A stretch of DNA of 29,526 bases, taken from positions 1 to 29,526 of IMG/VR virus record IMGVR_UViG_3300032516_000129, one strand, 5' to 3'. The translations under genes were made by a program, and so were the position numbers. The notes under the pieces were generated by a model, which saw only the letters and a program-made list of their open reading frames with translations, was not told where the DNA came from and ran no database searches. This DNA comes from a virus. Each line of letters starts with the position of its first letter. The stretch's first letter is position 1. Positions 1 to 29,252 of this stretch are shown here, piece after piece.

Positions 1-1812
1 GCCTACCTTCGTGTCCACCGGGCTGATGTAGTCCCAGGCATCAGGCTCCGTACCGGACTGTGGCCAGCACTTGAAGTAGCTCTGGCCAGCATCGTCGATC
101 TCCATCTTGAGGTATCGCCACTCGCCCGTGGTCCCCCCGATGGCTTCCTTCCAGACGTCAGACCCAGTGAAGGGTGGATCGGGGGCCGGGCCAGGTGAGA
201 AGTGGTAGCTGACCGCCCGCACCAGCGGGTTGAGTGACCATATCGGGGACTGCCCGACGCCCGGGCTGTCCCTGGCGAAGCCAAACATTATGTTCCACCC
301 CAGGGTCCAGCCAGTGGGGACCTGCATCCTCCATAGCCATTGCGTCTGGAACGGGCGGGTATACGGGAACGGCAGCATCCCTTCGCCGAGGCTGTCGCCC
401 GGGACATCGATGGGGTAGCCCACGTCTGCCTCGACCCCGAAGTCATTGTCGACGTAGAACTGGACGGTATGACCGCCCTGTGGGTTGTTGGCTATGTCCC
501 ACAGGTAGCCAGAGGTGGCGGTCCCCCAGCCAAAGCCGTCCGGGATCAGGTAGAACAACCTGTCGAACTCGTCGATCGAGCGGACGATCCCGGTCGGCGG
601 CGGGTCGTCCTTGCGGTTGTTCGTGTCGTCATCGTCAACGGGATCGACACGCCCGAACGGGACGTCGATGTTGTGGCTGAGATGCAGCTCCCACCTGGCT
701 GACGTGGGGGTCGGGAACGTGATCGTCACGGTCCGGATGGGGACGTTGTCCTGGTATGAGTAGACCGTGCTCTCGAAGTCGACGACCTGGGCTGCCCGGA
801 ACCCCTGCCGGAACACGGTGCAGGAGAGGAAGTCCTGGTCGTCCTTGTGGCCCCGGCGATGCGATGGCGAACCCAGGACGTAGGTGCGGGCGCGCCGAAG
901 GACAGTGGCCTCCTTCCAGGAGCCCGAGAACTGGTCAGCCCACTGGAAACGCCCATGAAGCGCGACCGAGGCTGCATCCTCGTACCTGGCAAAGACCGGA
1001 TCGGACGAGCCCTTGCCAGCGCCCCAGACAAGGGCATCGTTCGCCATGGCATCGGCCTTGCTCGAGATCTCCATCTCCCGGTAGCCCACATCGCCAGCGG
1101 TCAGCGGATGGTCCGTCAGCCGGTAGGGAGCCGTGGCAGCCGAGTCGTCTGCATAGACGAGGTATCCATCCGGGTCGATGTAGAAGACGCCGCCAGTGAT
1201 CTGGCAGATGTCCGTGAAGAGCACCGACAGCGGCTCGCCGACCGAACCGACCAGGAACTCCTGCTCCGGATCCGGTGATGCGATCGTCTGCACCTTGGTC
1301 GTATCCGGGAACTCGCCGTCGTACAGCATGGGCAGGCCACCGACGTCCACGAACTTCTCGACGAAGTCCTGGATGACGTCCTTGTCCAGCGTGCCAGCCG
1401 GGTAGATGGGGAACCGCTTGTTGCTCGATGGGTTCGCACGCTTGTACAGGTAGCGCCGCTGGAAGGCCAGGTTGACATCGGCGCCGTTGAGGACCCAGAA
1501 GCGAGGCGTGGTGGCAGGCGTCTGCGTGTCGTCGACCGGGAAGGCATACACCACGCTGGCTGCCATCACCCAGCCTCTCCACTCGGGGATGCCATCGATA
1601 TAGAGGACGAGGGTGCCCCCGGCATGGAAGAACCCCGGCACCATCTCGTTGGTGTCGTGGTCGTAGTACTGCGGCGGGAAGATGTGGTCGACATCCTTGA
1701 CCCGGAGGATCGCCTCTCCCGGGTTGCCGTCCGTCCTGGTCGTGAACGAGGCATCGGCCAGGATCGTCCAGGGGGCGATGTCGTTCCCCTCGTAGATGAT
1801 CTCGATGATCAT
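1..1812 (-). CDS. Minor tail protein (3' end outside window)
   Basis: An open frame from ATG at 1812, overlapping the tape measure stop by four bases (ATGA), runs 604 codons without a stop to the left edge, so the C terminus is missing. It starts MIIEIIYEGNDIAPWTIL, like distal-tail/minor tail proteins. A middle part (about 150-300) has FVEKFVDVGGLPMLYDGEF, VGEPLSVLFTDICQITGG and FYIDPDGYLVYADD, fitting the tail-hub type of fold. The last part (about 480-604) is concanavalin-like, with YLKMEIDDAGQSYFKCWP and GTEPDAWDY, a pattern common in actinophage minor tail proteins. It probably forms part of the tail tip and contacts the host. The plus-strand and other minus-strand frames here are shadows. 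Confidence 0.85.
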   Translation of the reverse strand, partial: MIIEIIYEGNDIAPWTILADASFTTRTDGNPGEAILRVKDVDHIFPPQYYDHDTNEMVPGFFHAGGTLVLYIDGIPEWRGWVMAASVVYAFPVDDTQTPATTPRFWVLNGADVNLAFQRRYLYKRANPSSNKRFPIYPAGTLDKDVIQDFVEKFVDVGGLPMLYDGEFPDTTKVQTIASPDPEQEFLVGSVGEPLSVLFTDICQITGGVFYIDPDGYLVYADDSAATAPYRLTDHPLTAGDVGYREMEISSKADAMANDALVWGAGKGSSDPVFARYEDAASVALHGRFQWADQFSGSWKEATVLRRARTYVLGSPSHRRGHKDDQDFLSCTVFRQGFRAAQVVDFESTVYSYQDNVPIRTVTITFPTPTSARWELHLSHNIDVPFGRVDPVDDDDTNNRKDDPPPTGIVRSIDEFDRLFYLIPDGFGWGTATSGYLWDIANNPQGGHTVQFYVDNDFGVEADVGYPIDVPGDSLGEGMLPFPYTRPFQTQWLWRMQVPTGWTLGWNIMFGFARDSPGVGQSPIWSLNPLVRAVSYHFSPGPAPDPPFTGSDVWKEAIGGTTGEWRYLKMEIDDAGQSYFKCWPQSGTEPDAWDYISPVDTKVG

Positions 1813-4800
1813 GACTGGTTGGTTGCGAAGATCGCGGCCCTCCGGTTGAGGCGGTCCTCGACCCGGCGTGCGATCCGCTCCGCTACGGCATCGACGTCGC
1901 TCGTCTCGCGGACGCGCCAGTCGCCGCTGATGTTGACGTTGACGCTGGTGCCGCCCCCGCCCCCACCGAACATGGCGCCCATCGGCACCCGTCGCGGGTT
2001 CCGCAGGACGGCGACATGCTCGTTGCCAGCCTCGCCGACGGTCATGGACGTCCCGCCGCGGGTGTCGAAGACGGTCCCCCGGGCATGCTTGTTCACGAAG
2101 CCCGGGAAGAGTCCCTGGATGCCCTGCTGAAGCGAGACGAGACCGTCAAGAAGGCTGCCGACCGCGGTGCCCGTCCCTATGGCCCCGGACCCCTTGTCGC
2201 CGCCCGCGCCAGTGCCAGTGCCAGTGCCGGTGTCAGGTGCGGCCGTCGGCACCAGGGCTGCCAGGGTGGTCTGGTACTTGGTGGTCAGGTTCGCAAGGCT
2301 GGTGTCGACCTCCTTGTTGAAGGCCGCGCTGAACTTGCCGGTAGCAGCCTCGATCTCGGCCTCGGTGGAGATGGCCATGTTGTGGATCCCAAGCCCAAGG
2401 TCCTTGAAGGTGTCAGCCATCTGGACCTTCATGTTCAGGGCCTGCTGCTTGAGGTCGACGACCTGGTTGAGCCCCTTGACGTCGACCTCGATGGCGTGAC
2501 CGGCCATCGTGCTCTTGAGCGCAGCCACCGCATCCAGCGATGCACGGCTGAACTCGATCTTCTGGATCTGGATCCCGGTGCCGAACTGCTTCTTGTTGAT
2601 GTCCAGGAGACGCTGCTGCTGCTTGGCCTCGTAGTCGGCATCACGGGCCCGGCTGGCACGCTCCGTGGCCGTGGCCCCGGGAGTGCTCAGGCGGCTCACC
2701 GCGCGGGAGAAGTTGAGCTGGCGCTGGCTCATGGCCAGCTGGATCCGGTCTGCCTCCCGGGACGAGAGCAGCTGTTCCTTCTGGAGCTGCCCCAGCTTCG
2801 TGGCGACGACGACCTGGTCCTGGTACCGGGCGGTCCCCTTCTCGGTGAAGCCGACCAGGGCACGCACGATCGTCGACCGCTTGCCCTCCATGGCCAGCGC
2901 GTCGCCCAGGGATCTCTTCTGCAGCATCAGGTCGCGGTTGTACTGTGCCTGGGCCAGCCCGCCGGTCTCCTTGCCAGCCCGCTCCTTCAGGTCCCGGATC
3001 TCGTTCCCCAGGGACTTGATGGCTGCGATCTGGTCGGGCGGTACCTTCAGGTCGGCCCACGCCTTGTCGCCTATCGCCTGCAACGCCTGGAGTTCCTTCC
3101 GGGCGTCATTGGTGGCGGACGCGTACGTCTTGACCGACATCGTGACCGTTGGGTCGACCGCGCTGAACTGGGGCCCCAGGGCGCCCAGCGTCTGGGAGCC
3201 GACCGCGGACTGCGCGACAGATGCCTTCGATGCCAGCGGGTTGACGGCCAGGTTCTCGGCGAACGACGTAGGGATGGTCGTGGTGCGAGCTAGCGCCGCC
3301 TGGGACTCGAGCGCGTGGATCTGTGCCTGCAGGCCACGCTGCATGCTCTGCAGGAGATAGCCCGGGTCCTGGATGTTCTGGCCCTTGAGCTGGCCCTCGA
3401 AGAGGTTGTTGATGTCCCTGGCCGAAGACACGGTCGCGCCGGTCCCGGTCTGGGCAGAGATGCCAGCCTGCCGATACTTGTCAGCGATCGGGCCCGCGAC
3501 CCCGGCAGCGATCATCGCCTTGTAGGTCTGCTCGATCTCCTTGGTCTTGGTCGGGTCGTAGACCAGCTTCCCGAACTCGGACCCCGCCTTGGTCACCGTC
3601 TCGTTGAAGACCTTGACCGTGTCGATGATGTCGGCCGGTCCGGATGCGTCCCCCGTAGTGGCATGCCGGGACTCGTCGACGAGCTTCAGGATGTTGGCGT
3701 TCTTGGTCGCCTGGTCGGACCCGCCCAGGTTCTCGCCAGCGATCTGGAAGAGCTTCTGGACGTTGTTCGGGATCGCTCCGACCGAGTTCGCCTCGGGGTT
3801 GGCTGGATTGAATAGGCCTGCCGTCTGCTCGACGGCTCCTGGCGTCTGGCCCAGCCAGTTGAACGGTGTCCCGGGCAGGACGCCGTTACCCATGCCGATG
3901 CCGATGCCGACCTGGTGGTTGCCACCTTCCGGACCGCCGCGGTCTACACGACGCCCCGCCCGGATCAGGTCGATGGCCGTCTGGAGGTTCTTGTTGCCAG
4001 CCTCACGCCCAGCCATCGTCTCGATGCCCGCGGTGTTGAAGCCGCCTGGAAGGCCTGCCGCTCCAGCAGCAGCTGCCACGGTTCCCCTGACGTCACCGCC
4101 GCGCGCCTGGACCTGGGCCCCAAGCTCGCTCGTGACACGGGCTGCCGTACCGGCGAAGCCAGTGAACGCGTCAGCAGCCGGGCCAGCTGCCTTGCCTACC
4201 AGTTCCAGGGCCACCTGGACAGCCGTCATCGCAGCCGTGAACAGCACGGTGCCGCCGATGATGCCTGCCAGGCCAGCCCCCTGCGCCCGGACTGCCTGGA
4301 CCGGAGACAGGATGCCCTTCTGCGCTACCCGGGCAGTGTCGGTGCGCTCGGTAGCGATACGACGCTGGTCAGCGGTCGCCTTGCGCTGGGCAAGGTAGTC
4401 CGCAACGTTCTGCTGACGGGTCTCCAGCTTCTCCGTATCGGTCTTGAACATGTCCTGGCGCCCAGGGCCGACCGTGCCTCGCCGGATGAGCGCGGACTGC
4501 TCCCGGATGGTGGTCAGCTTCTCTTCCTCGGCTGCCGCCATCGATGTCGCGCGGGTAGCCCGCTGCTGGAGGGAGCGAGCCCTGCCAGCCCGCTCCAGGA
4601 TGCCCTTGCGGCCACCGACGAGGGTCTGGGAGATCTGCCCGAAGGCAACCGATGCAGCCCGGACAGGGGACAGCTGGAGGGCCTCGCTGATGCCCGTGTT
4701 GATCTTGTCGAGGTCTTCCCGGAGGGCATCGACGCTCTGGAATGCCTGCTCGCGTCCCTTGATCCTGGATACCGCGCCAGTCCTGGGTGGCCTGACGAGA

Positions 4801-7800
4801 CGGCCACCAGCGACCGGCCCGGCAGCAGCGGCAGCAGCGCCTGCACCGGCAGCAGCTGGTCCGGCAGTGCCTGCCGTGGCGCGCGGCATCCCGGCAGCGG
4901 GAGCGTTCGCACGGGGCACGCGGGGAGAGCCAGCCGCACCACCGCCACTGAACATCCCAGCGAGCTGCTGGGGGTTCGAGAAGGCATTCGGCCAGTTGAC
5001 GACACGGACCGGCTGGGCGTTCTGGGCGATCGACATCGAGGTGCCGCGGAGCAGGGATGTGCCGTGCGCGGTGCCTGCTGCGATACGGCGGCGATTGGCA
5101 TCGCCCATGTACCAGAGGTTGCCGCCCTGGTTGCCGACCGGCCCGCCAGCGACGCGCCTGGACATACCGCCCAGCTGATGGTGCGGGATGATCTGGCCAT
5201 CCTCGGGGAAGCCCCTGACCTCGGGGCCATGCTGCCCGACCATCTCGGCCTGGCCGCTCTTGCCGACGTACATCTCCTCGCCGACTTCACCGACAAGGTA
5301 GGTCTGTTTGCTCAGGCCGAGGCGCTTGGCCGTCAACCAGGAGGAGGGATGGAGGTCGGCCCCGGGGCCCCGGACCTGAGCTGTATAGTCGGTCGTCCGC
5401 AGACGGTCCTTCCAGACTGGACCGCCACCAGCCCGGCCCTGGCGATAGGCCAGCAGGCGGTCGGCAGCAGCACTGCCTGGCGGGGGCTCCATGTCCTCCC
5501 GGACGGCTCCACCAGACTGGGGGCTCCCCCCCTGCATGATGCCTACCAGGGCGTTGTAGTACTGGGACTTCCGCTCGTCCCCTGGCCTGATCGCACCGCC
5601 CTGGTACAGGGTCGACTGGAGGATCCGCCCCAGGAGCCCGCCCATCGGGCCACCCTGGACCGGACCGCCACCCGCCCGTCGCTTCATGGCATCCCGGATG
5701 CCACCGACATTGAAGAACCGGCCTCCGGGCAGAAGGTCATGGGTCGTCGCCTTCAGGCGCGAGTCCTGCATGATCCCGCGTGGCCGGGGCTTGTCCCATG
5801 CCCCATGGGAGCCCGATTGGTATCCCTTCCGGCTATTGCAGCTCGTGCATAGCGTCTGCAGGTTCTGGGGATCCCATGGATCGCCACCATGGGCCTGCGA
5901 GGTGATGTGGTCAGCGGTCAGGAAGTTGCGCTTCTGGGTAGCCTCCAGCCGTCCGATGCCGCAATGCGAGCACCAGGGCTGCGAGCGAAGCTGACCGCTG
6001 CGAAGCTTCTTCCAGGCAGAGCCATTCTCGCGGGCGACGTTGACGTGGCCCTCAGGCGCTCCGCTACTTGCCCCGAACGGGCGCGACAGGAAGCCAGCCT
6101 TGACCGGCCCGCCTGCGGCACGCCTGAATATCGCGGGCGGCTCGGGGAAGGAGCCGGTGGTCCCTGCCGCCGCGGCCTTCTTGGCCTCCTTGAGGATGCG
6201 CTCATTCTCGGAGGACCGGAGGTCATGGGTCTGCGGCAGGTTGTGCTTCTTGACCAGGTCCGCGATGTGCATGGACGGGTCCACGCCACCCAGGCTAGCG
6301 CTGGGGATCGGGGCGCCCTCGCCACCCAGGCGCAGCATCCAGTTGCGCTGGTTCTGGCTTAGCCCTGCCCAGTTCTGCTTGCGCTGCCCGACCTGTTCCG
6401 TGAGCTGCTGCGCCTTCGCCTGGGCAGCCAGCTCGGCCTCTGTCGGCGCACGCTGGGCGACCTGCTGCGGATGGGCGAGGCGGTACTCCATCTCGGTATC
6501 GCGCTGTGCGATCGCCGCAGTCTGGATGGGCCCTGACGACTGGCCCGCGAAGCCAGAGGGCTGGCCCGGGGACGGCTTGTTGATCCGCTTCGGGGGCTCC
6601 CTGCGACTGTCGCGAAACTTCTGGGCCTTCTCGGGGTCCTCTTCCTCGAGCGGGGCAGCAGCGTAGTAGGAGCCGACCCCAGGCAGGTTGACGGGCTGCG
6701 CCTGGATGTTCCCAAGTTCGCCCTTCAGGTCCTCGGCCGACGGCAATGCCTGCTCTTCGAGGCGATCCCGCTGTGCCTGCTGACGCTTCAGGGCAGCATT
6801 GGACTCGGCTGCCGACTGCTGGATCGCCACGGCACCGGTACTCCGGGTGCCAGCGTTGCCCTTGGCCGCAGCCTTCCTGTTCCTTGATGTCGGCGTCTCC
6901 TGGGACGTGATGTCGCCCCGGATCGCGTTGGCGAACCCTGCTCGCAGGAGCATGGCGGGGTCCAGGCTGTATGGGTCAGTCTTGCCGATCTGTGCCCGCC
7001 GCAGCCTCTTCAAACGCTTGGCAGCCTTGGCCGGATCCCCACCGTAGGTGTAGAACGACCCCTCGATACCGCCACCCTCCCACTCGGAGGACAGTGCCTT
7101 GGCAGCTGGGTAATCGCCGCTCATGTGAGCGAACAGCGCATCGGACATGGGCTGGTCCATGGCGGACAACTTCGTGAAGCTGCCATCGTCCCGGACGTCA
7201 GCCAGAGCCTCACGAACCTGCGTGGCGCGCGGAGACTGGTCTGCAGCCAGCATCTCGCCATAGCGACTGGTCTGGAGCTGGGCAAGGATCCCGCCTGGAC
7301 CCATGCGTGCCAGTTCAGCCTGCTGCCTGTGCGCTTCCGGGACCTGTCCGATCGGGCCGAGCTTGACGCCCTTGACGCCCTGGCCGACCTCTGTCAGCAG
7401 GTTGATGTCGCGCGTGGACGAGCGTCGCCCCAGCCCTCGCCCACCCCGGTCTGCCTTGCGCGGCAGGGCCATATGCGCCTGCCTGGCAGCCTCTTCCTCG
7501 GGGCTCAGGGACATGGCCCGGGCGTTCAGGGAGCGGTCTGCCACTTGCCGCTGGACGACGTCGGGAGCAAAGGTGGTCCTGTCGCCAGCAGTCCCGGTCG
7601 CTGTGCCTACACCCCCGCCGCCTGCGACACGCGTGGTGGTGACAGGGGCCCGGAGGGCCTCACGCTCGGCCCGTCGCTGGGCCCGCGAGGCCCTGGCGGG
7701 AGAGTCGGCAGAGGGACGTGTCGAGGGTGCCCCGGTGATGACCGGGGGCGGGATCGACATCCCGGCGTCACGGGCGGCTGCCGCCTGGTGGGCAGCGGTC

Positions 7801-8735
7801 CGGACATCCTGCGTCGAACCACCGGCAGCCCGAACCGCCTGGGCCCGCTGCCGGTTGTGTGTGCCACGGATATGTCCGGTGAGGCTTCCCTCGGACGTGA
7901 ACGCCTTGCCGCACTCAGGGCAGGCGAACCCACCCCTGGCTGCGCCACTGGTCGCCACGCCACTGGTCGCTGCGCCACCACTGGCCGTGACTGTGGCTGC
8001 CTTCACGGTCCTGGGCCTGGTGGCATTGACGGCGGCGATCGCGGTCTTCGCCTGCGCCTCGGAGGCGCTGGCGATGCGTTCCTGGGCCCGGGCGTCGCGC
8101 AGCCTGGCAAACTCGGCCTTGTTGGCAGCACTCCGCTCCGCGCGCGTCTGGCCTGCTGGTCGCCCCTGCCGGACGTTCGCCTCTGCCTGTGTAGCGGCTA
8201 CCTCACTCGACTTGGCGATGCGCTCCTGGGCACGCTGATGCCGGACAGCCGTCTGGCTGCCAGCACCGCCACCGGAAGTGCCCCCGCCGCCTGCCGGGGA
8301 TGCGCCGCCCGCGGCGCCGCCAGGACGCCCGCCACCCCTGTAGACCAGCTCGACCGGGATCTTGATGACCCCGACGTCCTTGGCGATCTGCAGGCCAGCC
8401 GCCCTGGCCCCACCTGCGACATGCAGCTTGACGGGGAGGGTGGTCAGGCCTACCTGCTTGACCAGGCCCGCCGAGAAGTTCTTGGCGGACGCAGCCGAGA
8501 TCGTCGGGGTAAGGACAAGCGTCTTCCCCAGCGTGTCCTTGAGCTTCTTGCCAGCCGCCTCGACTGACGCGGTGCTCGGATTGATCTTGACCGAGAAGGT
8601 GATCTCTCGGGGCTTGCCCTTGTACCCGAAGGCGTCCAGGCGTTCCTTGGCAGCCGTGATCTGCTTGTTGAGGCCCTCGACGTCAACGCCGAGCGCGACA
8701 TAGATGCTGCCGACCTTCTGGCCGTTACCGGACAT
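1809..8735 (-). CDS. Tape measure protein with embedded C2H2 zinc finger and HNH nuclease motif
   Basis: A 2308-residue tape measure protein, the largest gene here, following the chaperone genes and preceding a minor tail gene. The opening VGSIYVALGVDVEGLNKQI is typical of the family. A C2H2 finger lies at 272-293 (C272, C275, H288, H293). An HNH motif lies at 922-970 (zinc Cys C922, C925, C963, C966; D942-H943, N958, N967). Four A-G-G-(G)-P-V modules end at V878, V1026, V1107 and V1200. VGE-x-G-x-E motifs start at V1148 and V2233. A hydrophobic segment lies near 1487-1530, then long helical regions. It ends in an ATGA overlap with the next gene. Expected to set tail length and leave the tail at infection. 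Confidence 0.92.
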   Translation of the reverse strand: MSGNGQKVGSIYVALGVDVEGLNKQITAAKERLDAFGYKGKPREITFSVKINPSTASVEAAGKKLKDTLGKTLVLTPTISAASAKNFSAGLVKQVGLTTLPVKLHVAGGARAAGLQIAKDVGVIKIPVELVYRGGGRPGGAAGGASPAGGGGTSGGGAGSQTAVRHQRAQERIAKSSEVAATQAEANVRQGRPAGQTRAERSAANKAEFARLRDARAQERIASASEAQAKTAIAAVNATRPRTVKAATVTASGGAATSGVATSGAARGGFACPECGKAFTSEGSLTGHIRGTHNRQRAQAVRAAGGSTQDVRTAAHQAAAARDAGMSIPPPVITGAPSTRPSADSPARASRAQRRAEREALRAPVTTTRVAGGGGVGTATGTAGDRTTFAPDVVQRQVADRSLNARAMSLSPEEEAARQAHMALPRKADRGGRGLGRRSSTRDINLLTEVGQGVKGVKLGPIGQVPEAHRQQAELARMGPGGILAQLQTSRYGEMLAADQSPRATQVREALADVRDDGSFTKLSAMDQPMSDALFAHMSGDYPAAKALSSEWEGGGIEGSFYTYGGDPAKAAKRLKRLRRAQIGKTDPYSLDPAMLLRAGFANAIRGDITSQETPTSRNRKAAAKGNAGTRSTGAVAIQQSAAESNAALKRQQAQRDRLEEQALPSAEDLKGELGNIQAQPVNLPGVGSYYAAAPLEEEDPEKAQKFRDSRREPPKRINKPSPGQPSGFAGQSSGPIQTAAIAQRDTEMEYRLAHPQQVAQRAPTEAELAAQAKAQQLTEQVGQRKQNWAGLSQNQRNWMLRLGGEGAPIPSASLGGVDPSMHIADLVKKHNLPQTHDLRSSENERILKEAKKAAAAGTTGSFPEPPAIFRRAAGGPVKAGFLSRPFGASSGAPEGHVNVARENGSAWKKLRSGQLRSQPWCSHCGIGRLEATQKRNFLTADHITSQAHGGDPWDPQNLQTLCTSCNSRKGYQSGSHGAWDKPRPRGIMQDSRLKATTHDLLPGGRFFNVGGIRDAMKRRAGGGPVQGGPMGGLLGRILQSTLYQGGAIRPGDERKSQYYNALVGIMQGGSPQSGGAVREDMEPPPGSAAADRLLAYRQGRAGGGPVWKDRLRTTDYTAQVRGPGADLHPSSWLTAKRLGLSKQTYLVGEVGEEMYVGKSGQAEMVGQHGPEVRGFPEDGQIIPHHQLGGMSRRVAGGPVGNQGGNLWYMGDANRRRIAAGTAHGTSLLRGTSMSIAQNAQPVRVVNWPNAFSNPQQLAGMFSGGGAAGSPRVPRANAPAAGMPRATAGTAGPAAAGAGAAAAAAGPVAGGRLVRPPRTGAVSRIKGREQAFQSVDALREDLDKINTGISEALQLSPVRAASVAFGQISQTLVGGRKGILERAGRARSLQQRATRATSMAAAEEEKLTTIREQSALIRRGTVGPGRQDMFKTDTEKLETRQQNVADYLAQRKATADQRRIATERTDTARVAQKGILSPVQAVRAQGAGLAGIIGGTVLFTAAMTAVQVALELVGKAAGPAADAFTGFAGTAARVTSELGAQVQARGGDVRGTVAAAAGAAGLPGGFNTAGIETMAGREAGNKNLQTAIDLIRAGRRVDRGGPEGGNHQVGIGIGMGNGVLPGTPFNWLGQTPGAVEQTAGLFNPANPEANSVGAIPNNVQKLFQIAGENLGGSDQATKNANILKLVDESRHATTGDASGPADIIDTVKVFNETVTKAGSEFGKLVYDPTKTKEIEQTYKAMIAAGVAGPIADKYRQAGISAQTGTGATVSSARDINNLFEGQLKGQNIQDPGYLLQSMQRGLQAQIHALESQAALARTTTIPTSFAENLAVNPLASKASVAQSAVGSQTLGALGPQFSAVDPTVTMSVKTYASATNDARKELQALQAIGDKAWADLKVPPDQIAAIKSLGNEIRDLKERAGKETGGLAQAQYNRDLMLQKRSLGDALAMEGKRSTIVRALVGFTEKGTARYQDQVVVATKLGQLQKEQLLSSREADRIQLAMSQRQLNFSRAVSRLSTPGATATERASRARDADYEAKQQQRLLDINKKQFGTGIQIQKIEFSRASLDAVAALKSTMAGHAIEVDVKGLNQVVDLKQQALNMKVQMADTFKDLGLGIHNMAISTEAEIEAATGKFSAAFNKEVDTSLANLTTKYQTTLAALVPTAAPDTGTGTGTGAGGDKGSGAIGTGTAVGSLLDGLVSLQQGIQGLFPGFVNKHARGTVFDTRGGTSMTVGEAGNEHVAVLRNPRRVPMGAMFGGGGGGTSVNVNISGDWRVRETSDVDAVAERIARRVEDRLNRRAAIFATNQS
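5826..5972 (-). other. HNH endonuclease motif inside the tape measure
   Basis: Residues 922-970 carry CSHCG, then LTADHITSQAHGGDP, then NLQTLCTSCNSRKG. The two CxxC pairs (C922/C925, C963/C966) fit the zinc site, D942-H943 the first HNH block, N958 the central Asn, and N967 the third position, where N or H is allowed in the McrA-like HNH group. All key residues are present, so activity is plausible. The surrounding frame is continuous, with no intein splice blocks seen. Confidence 0.85.
7857..7922 (-). other. C2H2 zinc-finger motif inside the tape measure
   Basis: Residues 272-293 of the tape measure read CPECGKAFTSEGSLTGHIRGTH, given here by key residues: C272, C275, F279, L285, H288, H293 (C-x2-C-x12-H-x4-H). 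This is the complete classical C2H2 pattern including the conserved hydrophobics. It lies in a Pro/Ala/Arg-rich linker region that otherwise looks disordered. It could bind DNA, RNA or a protein partner. Confidence 0.8.
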
Positions 8736-9774: not shown

Positions 9775-10194
9775 TCAGACGGTGAACACCGTCCACGCAC
9801 CAGCTGCGCGGAAGTTGCCCGACACGCGGACAGCGTCGGTGTTGCTCGCGGTGATCGCCGCATCGATGAGGCCCGGGCCATGCGCGACGAGGATGGGGCT
9901 CGCGCCGTCATCCGCGTACAGGTAGACCTGGGTGGCGTCGCTGTCCGTCGCGTTGACCATCAGGTCGCCCGACGTGTCCAGGATGCCATTGAACGTGCCC
10001 GAGACGTCCTTCAGGCCCGTGAGGTACGTCTTGTTGACGTCACCGAACACGGTGGCATCGACGTAGTCACGGTTGAGGTTCAGTGTCCACTCGTTCTTGG
10101 TGGCCACCTTGAATGCCCCAGCCTGGCCCTTCGCTGCGACCAGATAGATCGCACCGTTCTTGCCATGGAGCTTGGTTCCTGAGTTCGCGGTCAT
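9775..10194 (-). CDS. Major tail protein (tail tube)
   Basis: A 139-residue beta-rich protein. Core block WTLNLNRDYVDATVFGD, then YLTGLKDVSGTFNGILD, is the tail-tube signature of phi13/lambda-like siphoviruses ('w.l....d..d.T.fgd....y..gl.d...s.sG.wd'). It continues with VYLYADDG and ends GAWTVFTV. The length suits a short tail-tube subunit. ATG at 10194 follows AGGAGACGGC, a good ribosome binding site for an abundant protein. An 11-base-pair hairpin follows the gene. A conserved tube protein with no sheath gene nearby supports a siphovirus tail. Confidence 0.88.
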   Translation of the reverse strand: MTANSGTKLHGKNGAIYLVAAKGQAGAFKVATKNEWTLNLNRDYVDATVFGDVNKTYLTGLKDVSGTFNGILDTSGDLMVNATDSDATQVYLYADDGASPILVAHGPGLIDAAITASNTDAVRVSGNFRAAGAWTVFTV

Positions 10195-12853: not shown

Positions 12854-14185
12854 CTACTGCTTGACTCTCACCTTGTTCGAGAACGTAGGCGCCTTCACGG
12901 CGAGACCCCACATCCCGAAGATGATGAAGAGATGGGTCAGCTGGCCCGAGATCCCGATCGGGATGTCCAGGACGGTCGGACCCTCGGAGCCCAGGTAGGG
13001 CAGGGAGATGGTCCGCTCATCGAGGAGGTAGATGTCCCGAACGGAGTTGCTCGAGTACGTCGCCGCCGTGTAGGCGTCGATCGCAGTGCCGGGCACCACC
13101 GCGAGGGGCGTCCGGCCCATCGAGGTGTTCACAGCGTTGGTCGTGATGCCCGGGGCAACATCGACCTGGCTGTTCATGTACAGGACGTTGGCGTCCTGCT
13201 GCTCGTCGAACGTCTCCTTGTCGAGGGGGTTAGCCCACCCGATGTTGGGACGTCCGGCCTGCTGCATGGCCTGGGTGACCGCGCTGTTGAGCGCCCGGCG
13301 CATGGAGCCAGTGGTCGTCGGCGACGTCGCCGGGTCCACGTTGACTGCACGTGCGGAGTTGAGGATGGAGCGCAGGCCCGTGAACGCGTTCGCGTCGTAG
13401 AGACCCAGCTCGTTGGTCGTCAGACCGCCGCTGTCAGTGGCGTGACCGGAGAAGATCTGCTTCTGCATCCGGTTTGCCATGGCCAGCAGGCCACCCTGCA
13501 GCTCGAGCTGCTCGGGGCTGAAGCCTGAGCCCGACTGCACGGCAGCGAACTGTGACTTCAGCGAGACGCCGCGCCGGGTCGCCAGGATGGCCACGTTGGT
13601 GGTCGCCCGGACGTAGGTGCTGGCGTCATCGGTCACGGTCCCCAGCTCACCCATGAACTGGGCATCGCCGAAGGACGTGATCTGCTGGTAGGTGTGGGTC
13701 AGGCCGTTCGCTGGTTCCTTGGTGAACCGGTCGAACGCCGGGAACTCCCGGATGTACAGCTCGTAGAGGATGGGCTCGAGATCCTGGCGGATCAGAGCGG
13801 CAGCCCCGGAGCTGTCCAGAGCCTTCTGGACGCCTGGGTCCAGCTCGCGCCCGATGCCACCGAAGGCCTCGGAACGTGCCTGGCCACCAGCGGTGAGCCA
13901 CGCGTCGAGCGGGATACCTGTGTTCTTCTGGACCGCCTGCTCGTAGAACATGGCGGTCAGTTCGGACGAAGACTTCTTGCGAAGCTCGGAGCGGATCGCG
14001 AGCTGGTCGGAACGACTGAGCATCCGGCGAGTGATCGGCGGGGTGCCCTGGTCACCGATGCCCTGCATCACCGTGGGGGCGACGAGGGTTCCGGGGTTGT
14101 CGTTCAGTCCAGCCAGCATCGCCCCGATGTCGCGCAGCGTGTTCTGCGCATTGGTGAGGGCAGCAGCCCTCTCCTCGGGAGTCAC
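12854..14185 (-). CDS. Major capsid protein, HK97 fold
   Basis: A 443-residue protein directly after the protease, as in HK97-like phages. The first ~110 residues are helical and charged (KKSSSELTAMFYEQAVQK), perhaps a removable N-terminal part. The later body has beta-rich P/A-domain-like segments (FTKEPANGLTHTYQQIT, TRRGVSLKSQFA), then NVLYMNSQVDVAPG and YLLDERTISLPYLG near the C terminus, ending with a hydrophobic LFIIFGMWGLAVKAP strand typical of HK97-fold capsids. The start is a GTG at 14185 with AGGAGG nine bases upstream, overlapping the protease stop by four bases. Assignment rests on gene order, length and overall pattern. Whether the N terminus is cleaved cannot be told. Confidence 0.88.
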   Translation of the reverse strand: MTPEERAAALTNAQNTLRDIGAMLAGLNDNPGTLVAPTVMQGIGDQGTPPITRRMLSRSDQLAIRSELRKKSSSELTAMFYEQAVQKNTGIPLDAWLTAGGQARSEAFGGIGRELDPGVQKALDSSGAAALIRQDLEPILYELYIREFPAFDRFTKEPANGLTHTYQQITSFGDAQFMGELGTVTDDASTYVRATTNVAILATRRGVSLKSQFAAVQSGSGFSPEQLELQGGLLAMANRMQKQIFSGHATDSGGLTTNELGLYDANAFTGLRSILNSARAVNVDPATSPTTTGSMRRALNSAVTQAMQQAGRPNIGWANPLDKETFDEQQDANVLYMNSQVDVAPGITTNAVNTSMGRTPLAVVPGTAIDAYTAATYSSNSVRDIYLLDERTISLPYLGSEGPTVLDIPIGISGQLTHLFIIFGMWGLAVKAPTFSNKVRVKQ

Positions 14186-15609
14186 TGGTCGGAACCTCCT
14201 GTAAGCATCTTCATGAAGTCGTCGCTGTACGGTCCACCCTGAAGGCGCGCCGTCAGCTGCTCGACCTCGGCTGCCGCGGATCGCACCATCTGGGTCTTGC
14301 GGCCCATCGGGATGTTGCCCACGGTCTGGATGATCCTGGCTGCCTGGGCGATGATCTCGCCTGTCTCGGCCAGGGCCTGTTCACGCTCGGCCACCACCGA
14401 CGCATTCGCCACCAGCGACTCGCCCAGCTGCCGCCGCACGTCCACCAACTCCGTGGTGGTCTCGCGTAGCAGGTCGAGAATGCCCTGGAGTTGGGTCAGG
14501 TCGACCTCTCCCGGTGCGTTCTCCAGCAGGCTGATCGCCGACGCGGTCACGTCAGGCGTCGGAGCACTGAACTCGCCATCGTCCGCAGGGTCGCTCGCAG
14601 CATCCTGGGATGGCTCGTCCGCTCCGTCAGACGAACCGGCTGGCTCGTCCGTGTCGATCGTGATGACCTGGATGCGGGCGTCGGTCAGATCCGGCGTCAC
14701 ATCCTTGTGCATGGAGTTCTCGCAGTCGCCCTTGGGGCTGCCTGCCGAGCCGCCACAATCCGGGCACGCTGCCAGGGTGAGGCCACTCCATGAATGACCG
14801 TCGCCCTCGGCGTGGTCGGTTTCGTAGTTGCAGAGGAGACCGGTCTCCCCGAACTCCAGGCCGCAGATGGAGGCAAGGATCTCCGGGTCGATCTCGAAGA
14901 TGCGCGGCCCAGCGGGGGGCGCAGACTCAAGGTCTTCGTTCGTGACCCCTGCGAGTTGCAGGCCCTCGAGGGACCCCTCGATGTGATAGCGCCCGGCATC
15001 AAGCGTGATGGTCGGCGAACCCAGTTGATGGGTCGTGCTGCGGCGGATCTCCAGGTCCTCAAGCGCGCGGATCGCATTCGAGATCCAGGACCGCTGGTTC
15101 GCGGGGATGCCGACGATGCTCGTCTCCAGCAGCTTGACGTGCTGGATGCGCATCGCGCCGGTCTTCTTGTCCCGGATGTAGCCGCCCTCCGGGATCATCG
15201 CGCCGATCGACAGGCCGATCTTGTGGCCGTTGTCGATGGCCTTCCACGCCTTGATCGCGCGGTCGTTCTCATCGTTGATGTCGATGTCGAAGTCGAGGTC
15301 GTAGTTGGGGTTGCCCTCGCCGTCGACGCCCCTGGTCCACATCTTCGCGTGGGTGACCATGCCGCCCACGTCCTCGGGCACCTTGTACTCATGGTTGAGG
15401 AAGATGGTCAGCCCGTCATTGGCATCGCGCTCCATGTCTGCGAGCGCGGTGTCCTCCATGGTGTCGCCGTGGAGGTCCCTGGTCGTGGACGATGCCACGC
15501 CATGGAGCGTCATCTTGCCGTCAGGAGTCTTCGCCGCCTTCAGCAAGCCCGAGAACAGCTTGAACGTGGCCACGTTCGTGGTCTGGATCGCCTGGTCGAT
15601 CAGATCCAT
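14182..15609 (-). CDS. Prohead serine protease (HK97/U35 type) with cysteine-rich insert and scaffold-like C terminus
   Basis: A 475-residue protein, much longer than a stand-alone HK97 prohead protease (about 200). Residues 1-185 form the protease: HGVASSTTRDLHGD, then FLNHEY with probable catalytic His (H73), IGLSIGA with probable Ser (S134), and LLETSIVGIPAN, a hallmark of the family. A cysteine-rich stretch (C249, C260, C282, C285, C296, with His nearby) may bind zinc. From about 310 an acidic linker leads to a likely coiled coil (about 355-455: Leu, Glu, Gln and Arg rich), as in scaffold/delta domains. Start: ATG at 15609 with AAGGAGG nine bases upstream. It ends in a GTGA overlap with the capsid gene. 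It probably scaffolds and then matures the prohead. Confidence 0.9.
   Translation of the reverse strand: MDLIDQAIQTTNVATFKLFSGLLKAAKTPDGKMTLHGVASSTTRDLHGDTMEDTALADMERDANDGLTIFLNHEYKVPEDVGGMVTHAKMWTRGVDGEGNPNYDLDFDIDINDENDRAIKAWKAIDNGHKIGLSIGAMIPEGGYIRDKKTGAMRIQHVKLLETSIVGIPANQRSWISNAIRALEDLEIRRSTTHQLGSPTITLDAGRYHIEGSLEGLQLAGVTNEDLESAPPAGPRIFEIDPEILASICGLEFGETGLLCNYETDHAEGDGHSWSGLTLAACPDCGGSAGSPKGDCENSMHKDVTPDLTDARIQVITIDTDEPAGSSDGADEPSQDAASDPADDGEFSAPTPDVTASAISLLENAPGEVDLTQLQGILDLLRETTTELVDVRRQLGESLVANASVVAEREQALAETGEIIAQAARIIQTVGNIPMGRKTQMVRSAAAEVEQLTARLQGGPYSDDFMKMLTGGSDQ
14195..14200 (-). promoter_or_regulatory. Ribosome binding site of the major capsid gene
   Basis: AGGAGG nine bases before the GTG at 14185, inside the last codons of the protease gene. 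It supports the GTG start with its GTGA overlap and suits strong expression of the capsid protein. Confidence 0.75.
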
Positions 15610-16825
15610 GTGTCAGTTCCTCCTTCGCCATGGCTCCTTGGTGGAGCCCGGTCAAGAACTCATGGAACCGAGCCGCTGCGTAGTCCCATTGGAAGGAGCT
15701 ACGAACGTGCTCGACACCTGCCTCGCCCAGCTTCCGGCGCGCTCCACTCGATGAGTAGAGCTGCTCGATCGCGTCGCTGAAGGCCTCGATGTCCGCCAGC
15801 CAGAGGTCCTGGCCAGAGGGAACAGTGATGAGCCGCTGTGGCTCGATGAGGATCCCGCCTGGCCCGACGACTTCGGGGATGGCCGAGATGTTCTGCGCGA
15901 TGACCGGGACGCCACATGCGAGCGCCTCGGCCAGGGTCAGCCCGAAGCCTTCGCCGCGGGACGTGGACACGACCAGGTCGGCAGCGTTCACCAGGGCATT
16001 CAAGTCCTGCTGTGGCCATCCCTGGAAGGTGTTGTGGAAGTCGGGGCCGAAGAACCGGCTGCGGTCGATCCGGGGTTCACGGGTGTAGAGCGTGTTCAGG
16101 TCGACACCGGATCCCAGGTCGCTCTGTGAGCAATGGAAGTGCACCTGGATCTCGCGATGCCGCAGCATCACGGGCACCAGGGCCTTGTAGGTGGCGGCGA
16201 AGTCCTTCCGCCCGCTGTTCTTGTCGATGCGCAGTACCAGGAACCCATCGGGGTCGAAGCCGAACGCGCGCTTGCAGTCCTTCTTGGACCGCAGAACCTC
16301 GCCGCTCTGGACCTTGATCGGCTTCTCCCTGACTGGCCAGAAGAGGTCCGTGTCAACGCCGTGGTAGACGAGCTTCGAGCCCGGGTAGTGCTGCCGCCCC
16401 CAGTTGCTCATGGCGACGACGTTCGTGACCTTCGAGAGCACCTCGCCCCATGCAGGGGGGAGGTTCGTCCCGTCGCACGGGATGTAGCTCAGGATCGGCC
16501 GGTACTGGAGCAGCATCCGCTCGGGGTCGTAGCGGTTGTTGAACAGGTAGTGGATGAGGACCGTCGGATCGTTGAGCATCACGACCACGTCCGGCTCCAG
16601 CTTGGCCAGCATCTCGAGGACCCTGGAATAGCCGTAGAGGTCGGTGCCGACCAGCGAGTCTGGCCGGTACAGGTGCATCGGGGTGGGCCAGTAGTCACCG
16701 CGATGGTTGATCGCCAGGACGCTAACCTCGTGCCCGTAATCCTGGACGAGCCGGTCACCGACCGAATGGGTCACCCGGCCGAACCCCGTATGGCAACCGC
16801 CATCCCCAAGCCATAGAACCTTCAC
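15521..16825 (-). CDS. GT4-family glycosyltransferase, GT-B fold
   Basis: A 434-residue retaining-type glycosyltransferase. The N-terminal Rossmann half opens MKVLWLGDGG with a glycine-rich acceptor loop (HTGFGRVTH). The C-terminal half has FLVLRIDKNSGRKD, matching the conserved 'G.....KG/R' donor-phosphate block, and STSRGEGFGLTLAEALACG with the E-x7-E motif (E292, E300) of GT4 enzymes. The linker carries YHGVDTDLFWP, the usual 'hGVD...F.P' signature. The GTG at 16825 follows GGAGGCAGCGC. The last 29 codons overlap the start of the protease gene by 89 bases; the ending is hydrophilic and probably dispensable. Phage GT4 proteins can modify virion proteins or host envelope; the acceptor here is not known. 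Confidence 0.9.
   Translation of the reverse strand: MKVLWLGDGGCHTGFGRVTHSVGDRLVQDYGHEVSVLAINHRGDYWPTPMHLYRPDSLVGTDLYGYSRVLEMLAKLEPDVVVMLNDPTVLIHYLFNNRYDPERMLLQYRPILSYIPCDGTNLPPAWGEVLSKVTNVVAMSNWGRQHYPGSKLVYHGVDTDLFWPVREKPIKVQSGEVLRSKKDCKRAFGFDPDGFLVLRIDKNSGRKDFAATYKALVPVMLRHREIQVHFHCSQSDLGSGVDLNTLYTREPRIDRSRFFGPDFHNTFQGWPQQDLNALVNAADLVVSTSRGEGFGLTLAEALACGVPVIAQNISAIPEVVGPGGILIEPQRLITVPSGQDLWLADIEAFSDAIEQLYSSSGARRKLGEAGVEHVRSSFQWDYAAARFHEFLTGLHQGAMAKEELTHGSDRPGDPDHERGHVQAVLGLAEGGEDS
15619..15625 (-). promoter_or_regulatory. Strong ribosome binding site deciding the protease start
   Basis: AAGGAGG lies nine bases before the ATG at 15609, inside the end of the GT4 glycosyltransferase gene. It shows that the 89-base overlap between the two genes is real and that the protease does not start further downstream. 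Confidence 0.8.
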
Positions 16826-19207: not shown

Positions 19208-20905
19208 CTACGAGTACGCAGTCACGACGATGCAGCCGTGTCCTCCCCGTCCGCCGAAGCCTCCCGCGATGCCGCCACCGCCGCCGCCGCCGCCGCCAGG
19301 GAAGCCGCCCGTCCCGCCCGTGACGACAGCCGAGCCGCCGCCCACGCCACCAGAGCCGCCGTACGGCAGCAGCGTGGAGTCGGTGCCGCTCTGGCCCTGC
19401 GTGGCGATGACTCCGATGGCCCCGCCTCCAGCGCCAGAGCCACTGATGGTCGCCGCCGTCTTGCCGCCCGAGCCGCCGCCGCCGCCGCGCAGCGAGTAGC
19501 CGTTGTTGACGCTCGTGAGGCCCGCGTCGGTGTCCGCTCCGGACTCACCGCCCCCACCGCCCCACTCGGCAGGAGAGCCGCCTGTGTTCGCGGTCGTGCC
19601 GGATCCACCGCGCCCACCGACAGCGCCCAGCCCTGCACCTGCCGTGGCTGCCTCCAGGGCGACGCGGGTGGTCGCCACTGCGGGGGTCGTGACACCTCTA
19701 CCAGCCCCAGAGCCACCGTTACCACCGTCCGCTGACGCCGCCGCCGTGGCGACGACGCCGAGGACGCGGGATGTGCTCGTGAGGGGGCCTCTGTTGCCCT
19801 TGTCGAACTCCGACAGGGAGGCGGCAGACCCGGCTGCGTTGAGCGCCACGCCGACGATGCCACCCTTGCCGGGGTGGACGTTGACGGGCGAGGTCAGGTC
19901 GTCGGCGCGATACCACGCCTCGTCATACCCGCCTCCGCCTCCGCCCCCGCCACCGGCAGCGGTGGCCACAGACTGGCCTCCAGATCCGCCCTGGCCACCG
20001 TCGCATACCTGGACGAAGACATTGCGGGCGAAGGGCGGGATAGGCCACGAGTCATCGACGTCGATGGACGACCCGATGAACGTGAAGATCTCGGGCGGGA
20101 ACCCTGCCGCTGGCTTGCTCGCGGTGTCGGCAGGCAGCCAGTGGATGCGGGTGCACAGGTCGGACGACGAGTTCGTCCACACGACCGTCGTCGCCTTGAC
20201 CGAACCGTGCGACGCCTTGATGCCCGTCGAGACGTAGATCCCCCCGCCGGTACCGTCCGTGGTCCCGTCATCGAACTGCTCCGTGACGCTCGTCAGGTCC
20301 GTATTCGCGAGCGTCCCTCCGGCCATTCCGGCCGCGTTATCAGCCGAGCCGACCCAGACGTCCATGACCAGCACCTGATCGCACGGCGCAACGCTCTTGG
20401 GGCTGGTGCCTGCGGTCGAGGCGGTGACCTTGAAGTTGTTGCCGCCGAAGTGGAACGGGTTGCCCGTGGTCGGGCATCCCCGGATGGCGATCATCACGCC
20501 GTAGGTATGGTCGCCCGTGTCCGGGATGGTCGGCGCGACCTCGGAGCCACCGTCGCGCTTCCACCACAGGCCCGCGCGGGTCGAGCCAGCCGTCACGGTC
20601 AGGCCGATGCCGTTCTGGGGGCCGAGCCTCGTGTAGCCAGCGATGTCGGTGATGTTCTCGTTGCTCGACTGGAGGATGAGCAGGAGGATGTCGTTGGTCG
20701 CGTGCACCCCCGGCAGGGTGGCGGTGGGGACGCCGGTCCCAGAGAACTCGACGCCAACAGACGCGATGGTCGGCACGTCCACGCCGAACGCAGCGATCTG
20801 CGACAGCGTCATCTTCTTGGAGGTGCCGCTCTCGTTGACGCCGAACTCCGACACCCCGGTGGGGGTCGTGACAGCCGAGAGGGCTGAGATCTTGGTATCG
20901 GGCAT
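19208..20905 (-). CDS. Glycine-rich tail-fibre-like protein
   Basis: A 565-residue protein. The N terminus, MPDTKISALSAVTTPTG followed by KKMTLSQIAAF, is typical of the virion-attachment end of phage fibre proteins. A middle beta-rich domain follows (about 45-260). From about 280, the segment WPIPPFARNVFVQV leads into long runs of glycine broken by short polar stretches, up to a glycine run and GRGGHGCIVVTAYS at the C terminus. This layout matches glycine-rich fibre and adhesin domains that pack as polyglycine-type helices and often carry host-recognition loops. ATG at 20905 follows AAGGGAGGGATCC. A surface fibre is likely. Finding it between portal and protease rather than after the tail genes is unusual. 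Confidence 0.8.
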   Translation of the reverse strand: MPDTKISALSAVTTPTGVSEFGVNESGTSKKMTLSQIAAFGVDVPTIASVGVEFSGTGVPTATLPGVHATNDILLLILQSSNENITDIAGYTRLGPQNGIGLTVTAGSTRAGLWWKRDGGSEVAPTIPDTGDHTYGVMIAIRGCPTTGNPFHFGGNNFKVTASTAGTSPKSVAPCDQVLVMDVWVGSADNAAGMAGGTLANTDLTSVTEQFDDGTTDGTGGGIYVSTGIKASHGSVKATTVVWTNSSSDLCTRIHWLPADTASKPAAGFPPEIFTFIGSSIDVDDSWPIPPFARNVFVQVCDGGQGGSGGQSVATAAGGGGGGGGGYDEAWYRADDLTSPVNVHPGKGGIVGVALNAAGSAASLSEFDKGNRGPLTSTSRVLGVVATAAASADGGNGGSGAGRGVTTPAVATTRVALEAATAGAGLGAVGGRGGSGTTANTGGSPAEWGGGGGESGADTDAGLTSVNNGYSLRGGGGGSGGKTAATISGSGAGGGAIGVIATQGQSGTDSTLLPYGGSGGVGGGSAVVTGGTGGFPGGGGGGGGGIAGGFGGRGGHGCIVVTAYS

Positions 20906-27352: not shown

Positions 27353-27841
27353 CTAAGTCTCGTCGTACGAGTAGTTGACGGTCTCCTGGACCCAGTTGCC
27401 CGGGTCAGCGGTAGCGGCCACCTGAAGCTGGAACACCACGGCCTTGGTCGTGCTGTTCGTCGTCGAGTAGCTCGTCGCGTCCCAGGTCGCCTTGTTCCCC
27501 GACGTGTAGGTGTTGAAGTTGGCGTTGGCGATGGTGCTGACACCCGTGGTCGGCGTGGTGCCGGTCACGTACGCCGCGGTGACGAACAGGGTCGTCGAGG
27601 TCTGGACTGCGCCATCCCCCCAGACCTTGAAGTTGGTGACGCCGTTCGCGGGAGCGGTGTCGACCTTCAGCCGCAGCCACGACTCGTAGCTGTTGTTGCC
27701 GACCGTGATGGGGTTGGCCTGGCGGTTGGCCAGGGTGTTCGTCGCGTTGTCAGCGGACGACAGGTCCACACCCGTGATGACGGCGGACTCGGTACCCGCC
27801 GATGCCCCCGTGTACTTCCTAAGGGAGAGCGATGCTGCCAT
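27353..27841 (-). CDS. Thr/Ser/Asn-rich beta-structured hypothetical protein, probable virion surface protein
   Basis: A 162-residue protein with no cysteine or membrane segment, and very rich in Thr, Ser, Asn and Ala. Alternating short hydrophobic stretches (for example SWLRLKVDTA, AVVFQLQVAATA) suggest an all-beta fold. It ends NYSYDET, a kind of ending common in small phage structural proteins. The ATG at 27841 follows GGAGGATCTAG, a good ribosome binding site, and lies inside the end of the portal gene. It sits between portal and the first glycosyltransferase. The Ser/Thr content and neighbourhood make it a candidate acceptor for O-linked sugar, but this is inference. I cannot name a family. 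Confidence 0.75.
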   Translation of the reverse strand: MAASLSLRKYTGASAGTESAVITGVDLSSADNATNTLANRQANPITVGNNSYESWLRLKVDTAPANGVTNFKVWGDGAVQTSTTLFVTAAYVTGTTPTTGVSTIANANFNTYTSGNKATWDATSYSTTNSTTKAVVFQLQVAATADPGNWVQETVNYSYDET

Positions 27842-29252
27842 CTAGATCCTCCATGCCCTTGCCAGCCGCTCCGGGGCCGGACCCGCTCGCGGGCCTCCCG
27901 TCCGGTGGCGCAGGGCTCTTCTTGCCCTCTGCCAGCTCCCGCGCCGACGGGACATCGTCAAGGATGACGACCCCCTGCGACGTGTTCGCCATCAACTTGT
28001 CGTAGATGTCTCCCTCGAGCTTCGGACGGCCTTCATCCTGCCGAGCTTCGTTGGGGGTCTTCCATGGCATCCCAGCAAGGGCCAGCCGGTTGATCTGCGC
28101 CCGGCTAAGGCTCTCCTTCAGGTTGAGACTGGTGAACGCGAAGGCCAGGTTGTTATCGGGCCCGCCGTTGGATCGGTCCTGGACCACCTCCTGGGTTATG
28201 TGCGACTGCACGAGACCGAGAAGGGGTCGCAGGCCGCGATCCTCGGTGTTCTCCTGCTGGACCTCCCCGTTCGCGCGGTTGATGTCGAAGCCCAGGCCCA
28301 GGTCATTCGCTGTCAGCCCGAACACCGCCGCCACCTTGCGGACGAGGTAGATCTGCCACTCCAGGAACTGCATATCGCGGTTGGATCCGCGGAAGGGGAT
28401 GAACTTGGCGTTCTTCGAGCCACCGATGAACGCCATGGCCCCACGGCCTGCCACCTCGGCAGACCAGTAGCCCTTGAACTTCTCGATCTGCTCGGGGCGT
28501 GCACCCTCACCAAGATCGAGCATCCCGTCGGGAGCCGCGTTCTGCACCTGCCGCGAGTTGTAGGCGTGGCCTGACAACTCCGCGTCGATGGTGAGCTTGA
28601 GCGTCTCAAGAGGGGAGAGGCCGACGACCCGGTAGGTCGCCGGGTTCATCATCACGTAGATGAAGTCCCCGTTGGTGAACTTCGCCGCTGCCCGGCCAAG
28701 GGCATCGGGGTACCAGTAATAACGGGGCTCCTCGGGTTCACCCGCCCAGAAGCGGGACACCTTCATCTCGCCGCCGTCCACGGCGTGGAGGTAGGCGATC
28801 TGGCCCCGGAGCGTGCGTTCCTTCTCTACGCACCCGGCGTCCAGGACGAGGATGTCCTCGATGATCGGCTGGATGAAGGTGCGCCAGCTGTCATCCCTGG
28901 GGTTCGGGTGATTGAGCTGGTATGTGATCTGGTCAGCAAGCTTCTGGCTGAACGGCTTCTCGGCGTCGACCGGGGCGATCGTCCATTCTGCCTGCGCGAC
29001 CTGGTCACGCCGGATGTTGATGGCAGCCCGGACCCACTCGCTGTGCTCTGCCCAGTGACGGAAGAGCTTGACGTTGGCCTTGCCGACCCTGCTCACGTCC
29101 TGGTAGACCATCCCGGAGGATGCGGCCCGGTTGGGGATGTTCTGTGGTGACGTCCGCCAGGCCCGCCGTACCTGCATCCGGACAGCAGCACCCGCTGGTC
29201 CCCGGTCCAGGAAGAGGGCGACGGTAGGTATCGACGACCGGACGAGGCTCAT
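27819..29252 (-). CDS. Phage portal protein, HK97 type
   Basis: A 477-residue protein expected to form the dodecameric ring at the capsid vertex through which DNA is packaged and to which the tail attaches. The length suits HK97-like portals. Recognisable features are an N-terminal clip/wing region with the WVRAAINIRRDQVA stretch (a typical portal signature for repeated interactions), a central DFIYVMMNPATYRVVGLSPLE segment matching the conserved 'GxSPLE' portal motif, and a later VRKVAAVFGLTANDLGL segment matching the conserved 'vA.afgvpp..lG' region. The C-terminal 40 residues are rich in Pro, Gly and Ala and look disordered. The ATG at 29252 overlaps the stop of the small upstream gene by four bases. 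The 3' end overlaps the next gene by 23 bases. Confidence 0.93.
   Translation of the reverse strand: MSLVRSSIPTVALFLDRGPAGAAVRMQVRRAWRTSPQNIPNRAASSGMVYQDVSRVGKANVKLFRHWAEHSEWVRAAINIRRDQVAQAEWTIAPVDAEKPFSQKLADQITYQLNHPNPRDDSWRTFIQPIIEDILVLDAGCVEKERTLRGQIAYLHAVDGGEMKVSRFWAGEPEEPRYYWYPDALGRAAAKFTNGDFIYVMMNPATYRVVGLSPLETLKLTIDAELSGHAYNSRQVQNAAPDGMLDLGEGARPEQIEKFKGYWSAEVAGRGAMAFIGGSKNAKFIPFRGSNRDMQFLEWQIYLVRKVAAVFGLTANDLGLGFDINRANGEVQQENTEDRGLRPLLGLVQSHITQEVVQDRSNGGPDNNLAFAFTSLNLKESLSRAQINRLALAGMPWKTPNEARQDEGRPKLEGDIYDKLMANTSQGVVILDDVPSARELAEGKKSPAPPDGRPASGSGPGAAGKGMEDLDGSIALP

Follow-up and report, generated by a model that had tools for sequence, protein, structure and literature searches.

The tape measure protein (TMP) encoded on a viral genome fragment from IMG/VR (record IMGVR_UViG_3300032516_000129; the entire stretch of 29,526 nucleotides is referred to here as the window) contains an intact HNH domain within its own reading frame. 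Tape measures are usually viewed as rulers, perhaps also helping to open the cell envelope. From a comparison with the TMPs of related phages we consider it somewhat more probable than not that the HNH domain belongs to a set of interchangeable cargo modules located in a variable, linker-rich N-terminal TMP half of this phage group. The interchange of enzyme-like modules suggests that the ruler protein may also bring working proteins into the infected cell.

An initial annotation of this DNA had noted that all key residues of an HNH nuclease lie in one continuous TMP frame, and this was borne out in every position. The family PF01844 matches a stop-free stretch of the minus strand (5820-5972, TMP residues 922-972), scoring 33.7 bits over the whole TMP and thus above the curated cut-off of 21.4, and the signature residues C922, C925, D942, H943, N958, C963, C966 and N967 are complete, including the catalytic His and Asn and the two zinc-binding CxxC pairs (C922/C925 and C963/C966). 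In addition, phrog_589 covers residues 902-997 (9e-19), and the spaced pattern C..C-[DE]H-C..CN did not occur once in 20,000 shuffles of the window TMP. The more specific label of a "McrA-like" domain did not hold, as a profile of the module reached the solved structure 4h9d (5e-10), a Cas9 (6e-9) and the HNH protein of phage GVE2 (5h0m, 5e-8) with McrA last among the matches (0.03). The expected fold was recovered: an AlphaFold model of the region, although poor as a whole (mean predicted local distance difference test score, pLDDT, of 53), contains two strands (71-76 and 91-95) followed by a helix (96-102, all in model numbering) that correspond to the beta-beta-alpha metal fold, with D942-H943 placed on the first strand, N967 on the helix and a core pLDDT of about 80. 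The top structural matches of this model are nearly all HNH folds (Cap5, Cas5-HNH, GVE2 HNH, McrA, EndoVII and Cas9 HNH), each of them individually weak with Z between 3 and 5, and the HNH-like but non-catalytic protein DotN is found among them as well.

The assignment of the carrier as a tape measure rests on several features. The frame is the longest tail gene, is located past the gene for the major tail protein, with portal, head protease, major capsid, connector and major tail proteins all encoded upstream, and contains a hydrophobic segment. Its residues 1118-1190 match annotated tape measures of Gordonia phages at 5e-7, and two TMPs of the phage group match phrog_1538 (tape measure).

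Direct IMG/VR searches with the C-terminal third of the window TMP and with its HNH region retrieved no relatives, and these were therefore obtained through the capsid protein, whose profile led to 80 virus loci, and also through a 565-aa protein of the window. TMP frames were located downstream of the capsid gene at a distance of about 4 kb, and 40 TMPs including that of the window were compared, many of them cut off by contig ends and 37 of them non-redundant (L160, L165 and L166 represent one sequence, while L174 and L197 are 97% identical). Seven of the 40 TMPs (window, G011, G012, G030, G046, G047 and G060, with open frames between 1265 and 2308 aa long) carry an HNH domain within the frame, so that the domain is present in some related tape measures and absent from others. 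With HNH found in seven TMP frames an assembly artefact is excluded; that the motif arose by chance or misassembly, a concern for a lone metagenomic fragment such as the window, is of negligible probability, since the frames are continuous on seven separate contigs and the shuffles gave no chance match. When G060 is aligned to L149, the HNH domain appears as an extra segment in G060, after which the stretches RAEGGP, HTGLLGR, VGERGPEL and VNWP are kept. In the alignment of the window with L054, a GNAT-like segment that stays under the Pfam cut-off takes the place of the HNH domain, and the downstream sequence retains LLGRILQSTL-like, GEVGEE-like and GGPV stretches.

A tree built from 82 HNH domains does not unite those embedded in TMPs in one clade: G030 groups with G060 (0.99), G046 pairs with G047 (0.94), a further group (0.87) joins the window to G012 and one free-standing HNH, and G011 stands apart. 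The deep branches of this tree are unreliable because the alignment spans only about 75 residues; the groups are plainly different in sequence too. The TMP-embedded domains would thus represent several captures, falling into at least three sequence groups. G030 and G060 possess additional, separate HNH genes of another type. Among the matches listed from isolated phages, none was annotated as a tape measure at the HNH itself, and the HNH match in a Microcystis phage is a separate gene adjoining terminase rather than a part of a TMP.

Judged by sequence divergence, the HNH domain is better conserved than its own flanks in the two pairs tested. Between G030 and G060 the module is 78% identical, compared to 27% in the region upstream and 56% in the region downstream, and its ratio of nonsynonymous to synonymous substitution rates (dN/dS) is 0.26; between G046 and G047 the ratio is 0.18 in the module, 0.41 downstream and 0.47 upstream. 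Five of the six relatives keep the catalytic His (as EH in G030), and degradation at the His/Asn positions, the outcome that the initial annotation had named as adverse, is confined to G012, which reads DA instead of DH. The lost His of G012, together with a lower G+C content at third codon positions (GC3) in the window's module (0.75-0.77 compared to 0.80-0.84 in its surroundings) that is compatible with later acquisition, could be taken to mean that the domain is a functionless, decaying leftover of an old fusion. We regard this as very improbable, as the dN/dS values of the module lie below those of the flanks in the same pairs and all Cys of otherwise Cys-free proteins are retained as zinc ligands. 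The window TMP contains six Cys, namely the four zinc ligands of the HNH domain and two of a C2H2-type finger, while the Cys frequency of the remaining window proteins scanned (0.69%) would predict about 16. Across the other 39 TMPs, Cys are confined to modules of the HNH or CxxC zinc type, except for four residues at the extreme N-terminal ends of frames, which probably sit upstream of the true starts. Cys avoidance is not specific to the TMP, since several further virion proteins of the window are Cys-free too; what is special to the TMP is the retention of Cys in zinc modules.

The HNH domain shares its place in the protein with unrelated modules. In the stretch that precedes the hydrophobic core of the 40 TMPs we found HNH in seven, DUF7178 in ten, RamC_N in four and HPr in two, and, with less certainty, GNAT, ParB-like, zincin, JAB-like, ART-like and C2H2 modules; 22 of the 40 TMPs carry at least one of the first four, and 26 do so if the weaker calls are included. 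A Pfam scan of the first part of 39 TMPs returned DUF7178 nine times, HNH seven times, RamC_N three times and HPr twice, besides single weak matches, with DUF7178, HPr and RamC_N above the Pfam cut-offs in TMPs of the group. Wherever the core is present in the fragment, the recognised modules lie N-terminal of it, and the same type of module is found at differing positions across TMPs. Record searches placed DUF7178 in 10 of 39, in every case within a frame of 1067 to 2893 aa; as a separate gene it is known from mycobacteriophages and Streptomyces phages, in some of which it is annotated as a glycosylase. RamC_N was found in four records, three of which are one phage. HPr occurs as two domains in the TMP of G057 and as one in that of G053, with a further one in a 947-aa frame of G039 outside the analysed set. 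The HPr modules (residues 272-359 and 1185-1284 of L190, 534-626 of L182) follow directly after an AGGPV linker, keep the GLHMRPS active site and match a solved HPr at 8.5e-11; the TMP of L190 combines DUF7178 and two HPr in a single polypeptide.

Further modules were assigned with varying support. A zincin metallopeptidase module (HEFGHAVDF...FAELF) is located at residues 581-765 of L176, 720-896 of L059 and 620-785 of L188, and the L176 module (HEFGH) aligns to zincins of the ATLF/PPEP type with Z 9.6 over about 150 residues of a low-confidence model. An IMG/VR scan with the zincin recovered only three TMPs, all already in this set, and neither it nor the JAB-like module had a match among isolated phages. 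C2H2-like fingers occur in L177 (at residues 233 and 883), L157 (at 300) and L059 (at 638), and the ParB-like modules reach ParB only at an E value of 0.01. The ART-like and JAB-like calls (L174 residues 233-347, L176 residues 374-488 and 840-974, L171 residues 488-657, L184 residues 999-1178 and L190 residues 540-692) are motifs read by eye for which Pfam gave no supporting match, and the JAB-like profile found no JAB structure. An ART-like fold is not claimed because the ART half of a second AlphaFold model has a pLDDT of about 25; this module has a single weak match among isolated phages (Bacillus phage SP-15) and none beyond itself in an IMG/VR scan. Linkers of the form A-x-GG-P-V flank the window HNH on both sides and are similar in several relatives while few are found in other TMPs, i.e., the linker is frequent in TMPs but not universal.

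Two ideas had been offered in the initial annotation, a nuclease carried as tape measure cargo and a homing element that inserted without breaking the gene. The first is the better one because the domain is conserved and recurrent and its region holds unrelated enzyme-like modules in relatives, whereas delivery itself we infer. A homing endonuclease inserted in frame and now self-spreading is an improbable alternative. HNH genes frequently act as homing elements, tape measure genes are established targets of homing, and the presence/absence pattern of HNH among TMPs would fit; in phage ICP1, the tape measure gene is interrupted by HNH genes and restored by splicing (PMC10448857). The two cases differ in that the window HNH belongs to the protein itself, whereas the ICP1 tape measure gene is split by its HNH gene. 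A homing endonuclease would be recognised by its own expression or by an intron or intein location, and neither was found for the window HNH: there is no in-frame start codon in TMP residues 841-925, the HN[CST] end of an intein is absent from the window TMP, in agreement with the earlier observation of missing splice blocks, and an Rfam scan of the window gave zero matches, so that intein and intron were both rejected. Pfam reported no homing DNA-binding domain beside the HNH. Since, in addition, non-nuclease modules (HPr, DUF7178 and RamC_N) occupy the same region in other TMPs, a homing origin is disfavoured.

Alternatively, the HNH fold might be kept as a small zinc-stapled part of the TMP that has a structural role or binds nucleic acid without cutting, for example by touching the leading genome end in the tail. 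The loss of the catalytic His in G012, whose module is otherwise nearest to that of the window, allows for a role in binding alone, and both the match to DotN and the additional C2H2-type finger of the window TMP are compatible with it. We nevertheless regard it as unlikely, though the most serious of the competing explanations, given that the His is kept in the other five relatives and that a structural role does not explain why unrelated enzyme-like modules replace HNH in other TMPs.

Cargo carried by the tape measure can be compared to several known systems. Free-standing phage HNH endonucleases (PF01844; phrog_589, phrog_144; 4h9d, 5h0m) share the motif and the predicted beta-beta-alpha metal core, but the window HNH is a domain in a 2308-aa tape measure and has no gene of its own. 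Polyvalent proteins of phages and conjugative elements, proposed to be injected with phage DNA (PMC5512222), likewise combine several unrelated enzyme-type domains in one polypeptide that is expected to be injected, and GNATs, peptidases and ParB-like domains are common to both repertoires. The carrier differs, as the text of that study does not contain the term "tape measure" and mentions HNH for GmrSD only, and several domains per protein are seen in relatives (L190), whereas HNH and a weak C2H2 finger are all that was seen in the window TMP. A TMP that doubles as a cargo protein of the polyvalent type is nevertheless our best reading. The nearest precedent would be Sle1 and Tme, tape-measure-related effectors with varying functional domains that are found in contractile injection systems (PMC13277306). 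As here, a tape-measure-related carrier is combined with exchangeable functional domains, but those effectors belong to bacterial injection systems and have the functional domain at the C-terminus, whereas the modules described here lie in the N-terminal half of a phage TMP. Neither a DUF4157 effector-core partner nor a contractile sheath operon had a match among the window genes scanned, the window being a fragment and some genes having been scanned in one library only. In the open-access literature searched, we found no report of phage tape measures of this kind that contain enzyme modules.

Most economically, the tail would carry the modules along and deliver them upon infection. The TMP would sit in the tail lumen and be ejected along with the genome, its hydrophobic core might engage the host membrane, and the modules would fold inside the host, where those with zinc sites could pick up metal. 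The HNH module, if delivered, may then nick, cut or bind nucleic acid early in infection, possible substrates being host DNA, a competing element and a defence target. Several points weigh against this: the catalytic His is missing from G012, His replaces two zinc Cys in G011, dS is near saturation in the G046/G047 pair, and the ART-like, JAB-like, ParB-like and GNAT modules of relatives are weakly supported. Delivery would also require that a folded domain fits into, or unfolds in, the tail tube and that the N-terminal half reaches the cytoplasm. The wider proposal is about as likely as not, namely that the TMP of this widespread uncultured phage group is a modular effector-delivery protein whose N-terminal cassette (nuclease, glycosylase-like DUF7178, HPr, acetyltransferase-like, peptidase and zinc-finger modules) is swapped between phages and delivered at entry.

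Features of the window relevant to the tape measure protein and its modules (all on the minus strand).
Feature	Position	Strand	TMP residues	Basis or remark
TMP	1809..8735	-		2308 aa, single open frame
Most hydrophobic TMP segment	4206..4262	-	1492-1510	conserved core begins here; alignment
Linker RVAGGPV, fourth	5136..5156	-	1194-1200	
GEVGEE...GPEV...IIPHH element	5166..5384	-	1118-1190	conserved in tape measures; matches Gordonia phage and family TMPs
Linker RAGGGPV, third	5415..5435	-	1101-1107	
Linker RAGGGPV, past HNH	5658..5678	-	1020-1026	
HNH domain	5802..6032	-	902-978	PF01844, PHROG, profile to solved HNH enzymes, beta-beta-alpha core in model
Linker RAAGGPV, ahead of HNH	6102..6122	-	872-878	
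C2H2-type zinc finger	7857..7928	-	270-293	under Pfam cut-off
Major tail protein	9775..10194	-		phrog_1407, 1.7e-7
Major capsid protein	12854..14185	-		PF17236 and phrog_752; bait for relatives
Portal protein	27819..29252	-		PF04860, 1.2e-34

Glycosyltransferase and nucleotide-sugar epimerase genes (15521-16825, 22436-23269 and 23266-24225) are located between the portal and capsid genes of the window, hinting at glycosylated virions. The 565-aa protein that served as the second route to relatives (19208-20905) has counterparts of 53-68% identity in eleven IMG/VR contigs and no match in Pfam or PHROG. The sole capsid relative in bacterial genomes (L207) lies on a contig of an Anaerolinea metagenome-assembled genome, a possible hint to the hosts.

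If the proposed role of the TMP is true, tails of this kind would inject proteins besides DNA, and a phage counterpart of the tape-measure-derived effectors of injection systems would become directly testable. If the variable half of the TMP indeed carries effectors, its modules would reveal which functions these phages require when infection begins.
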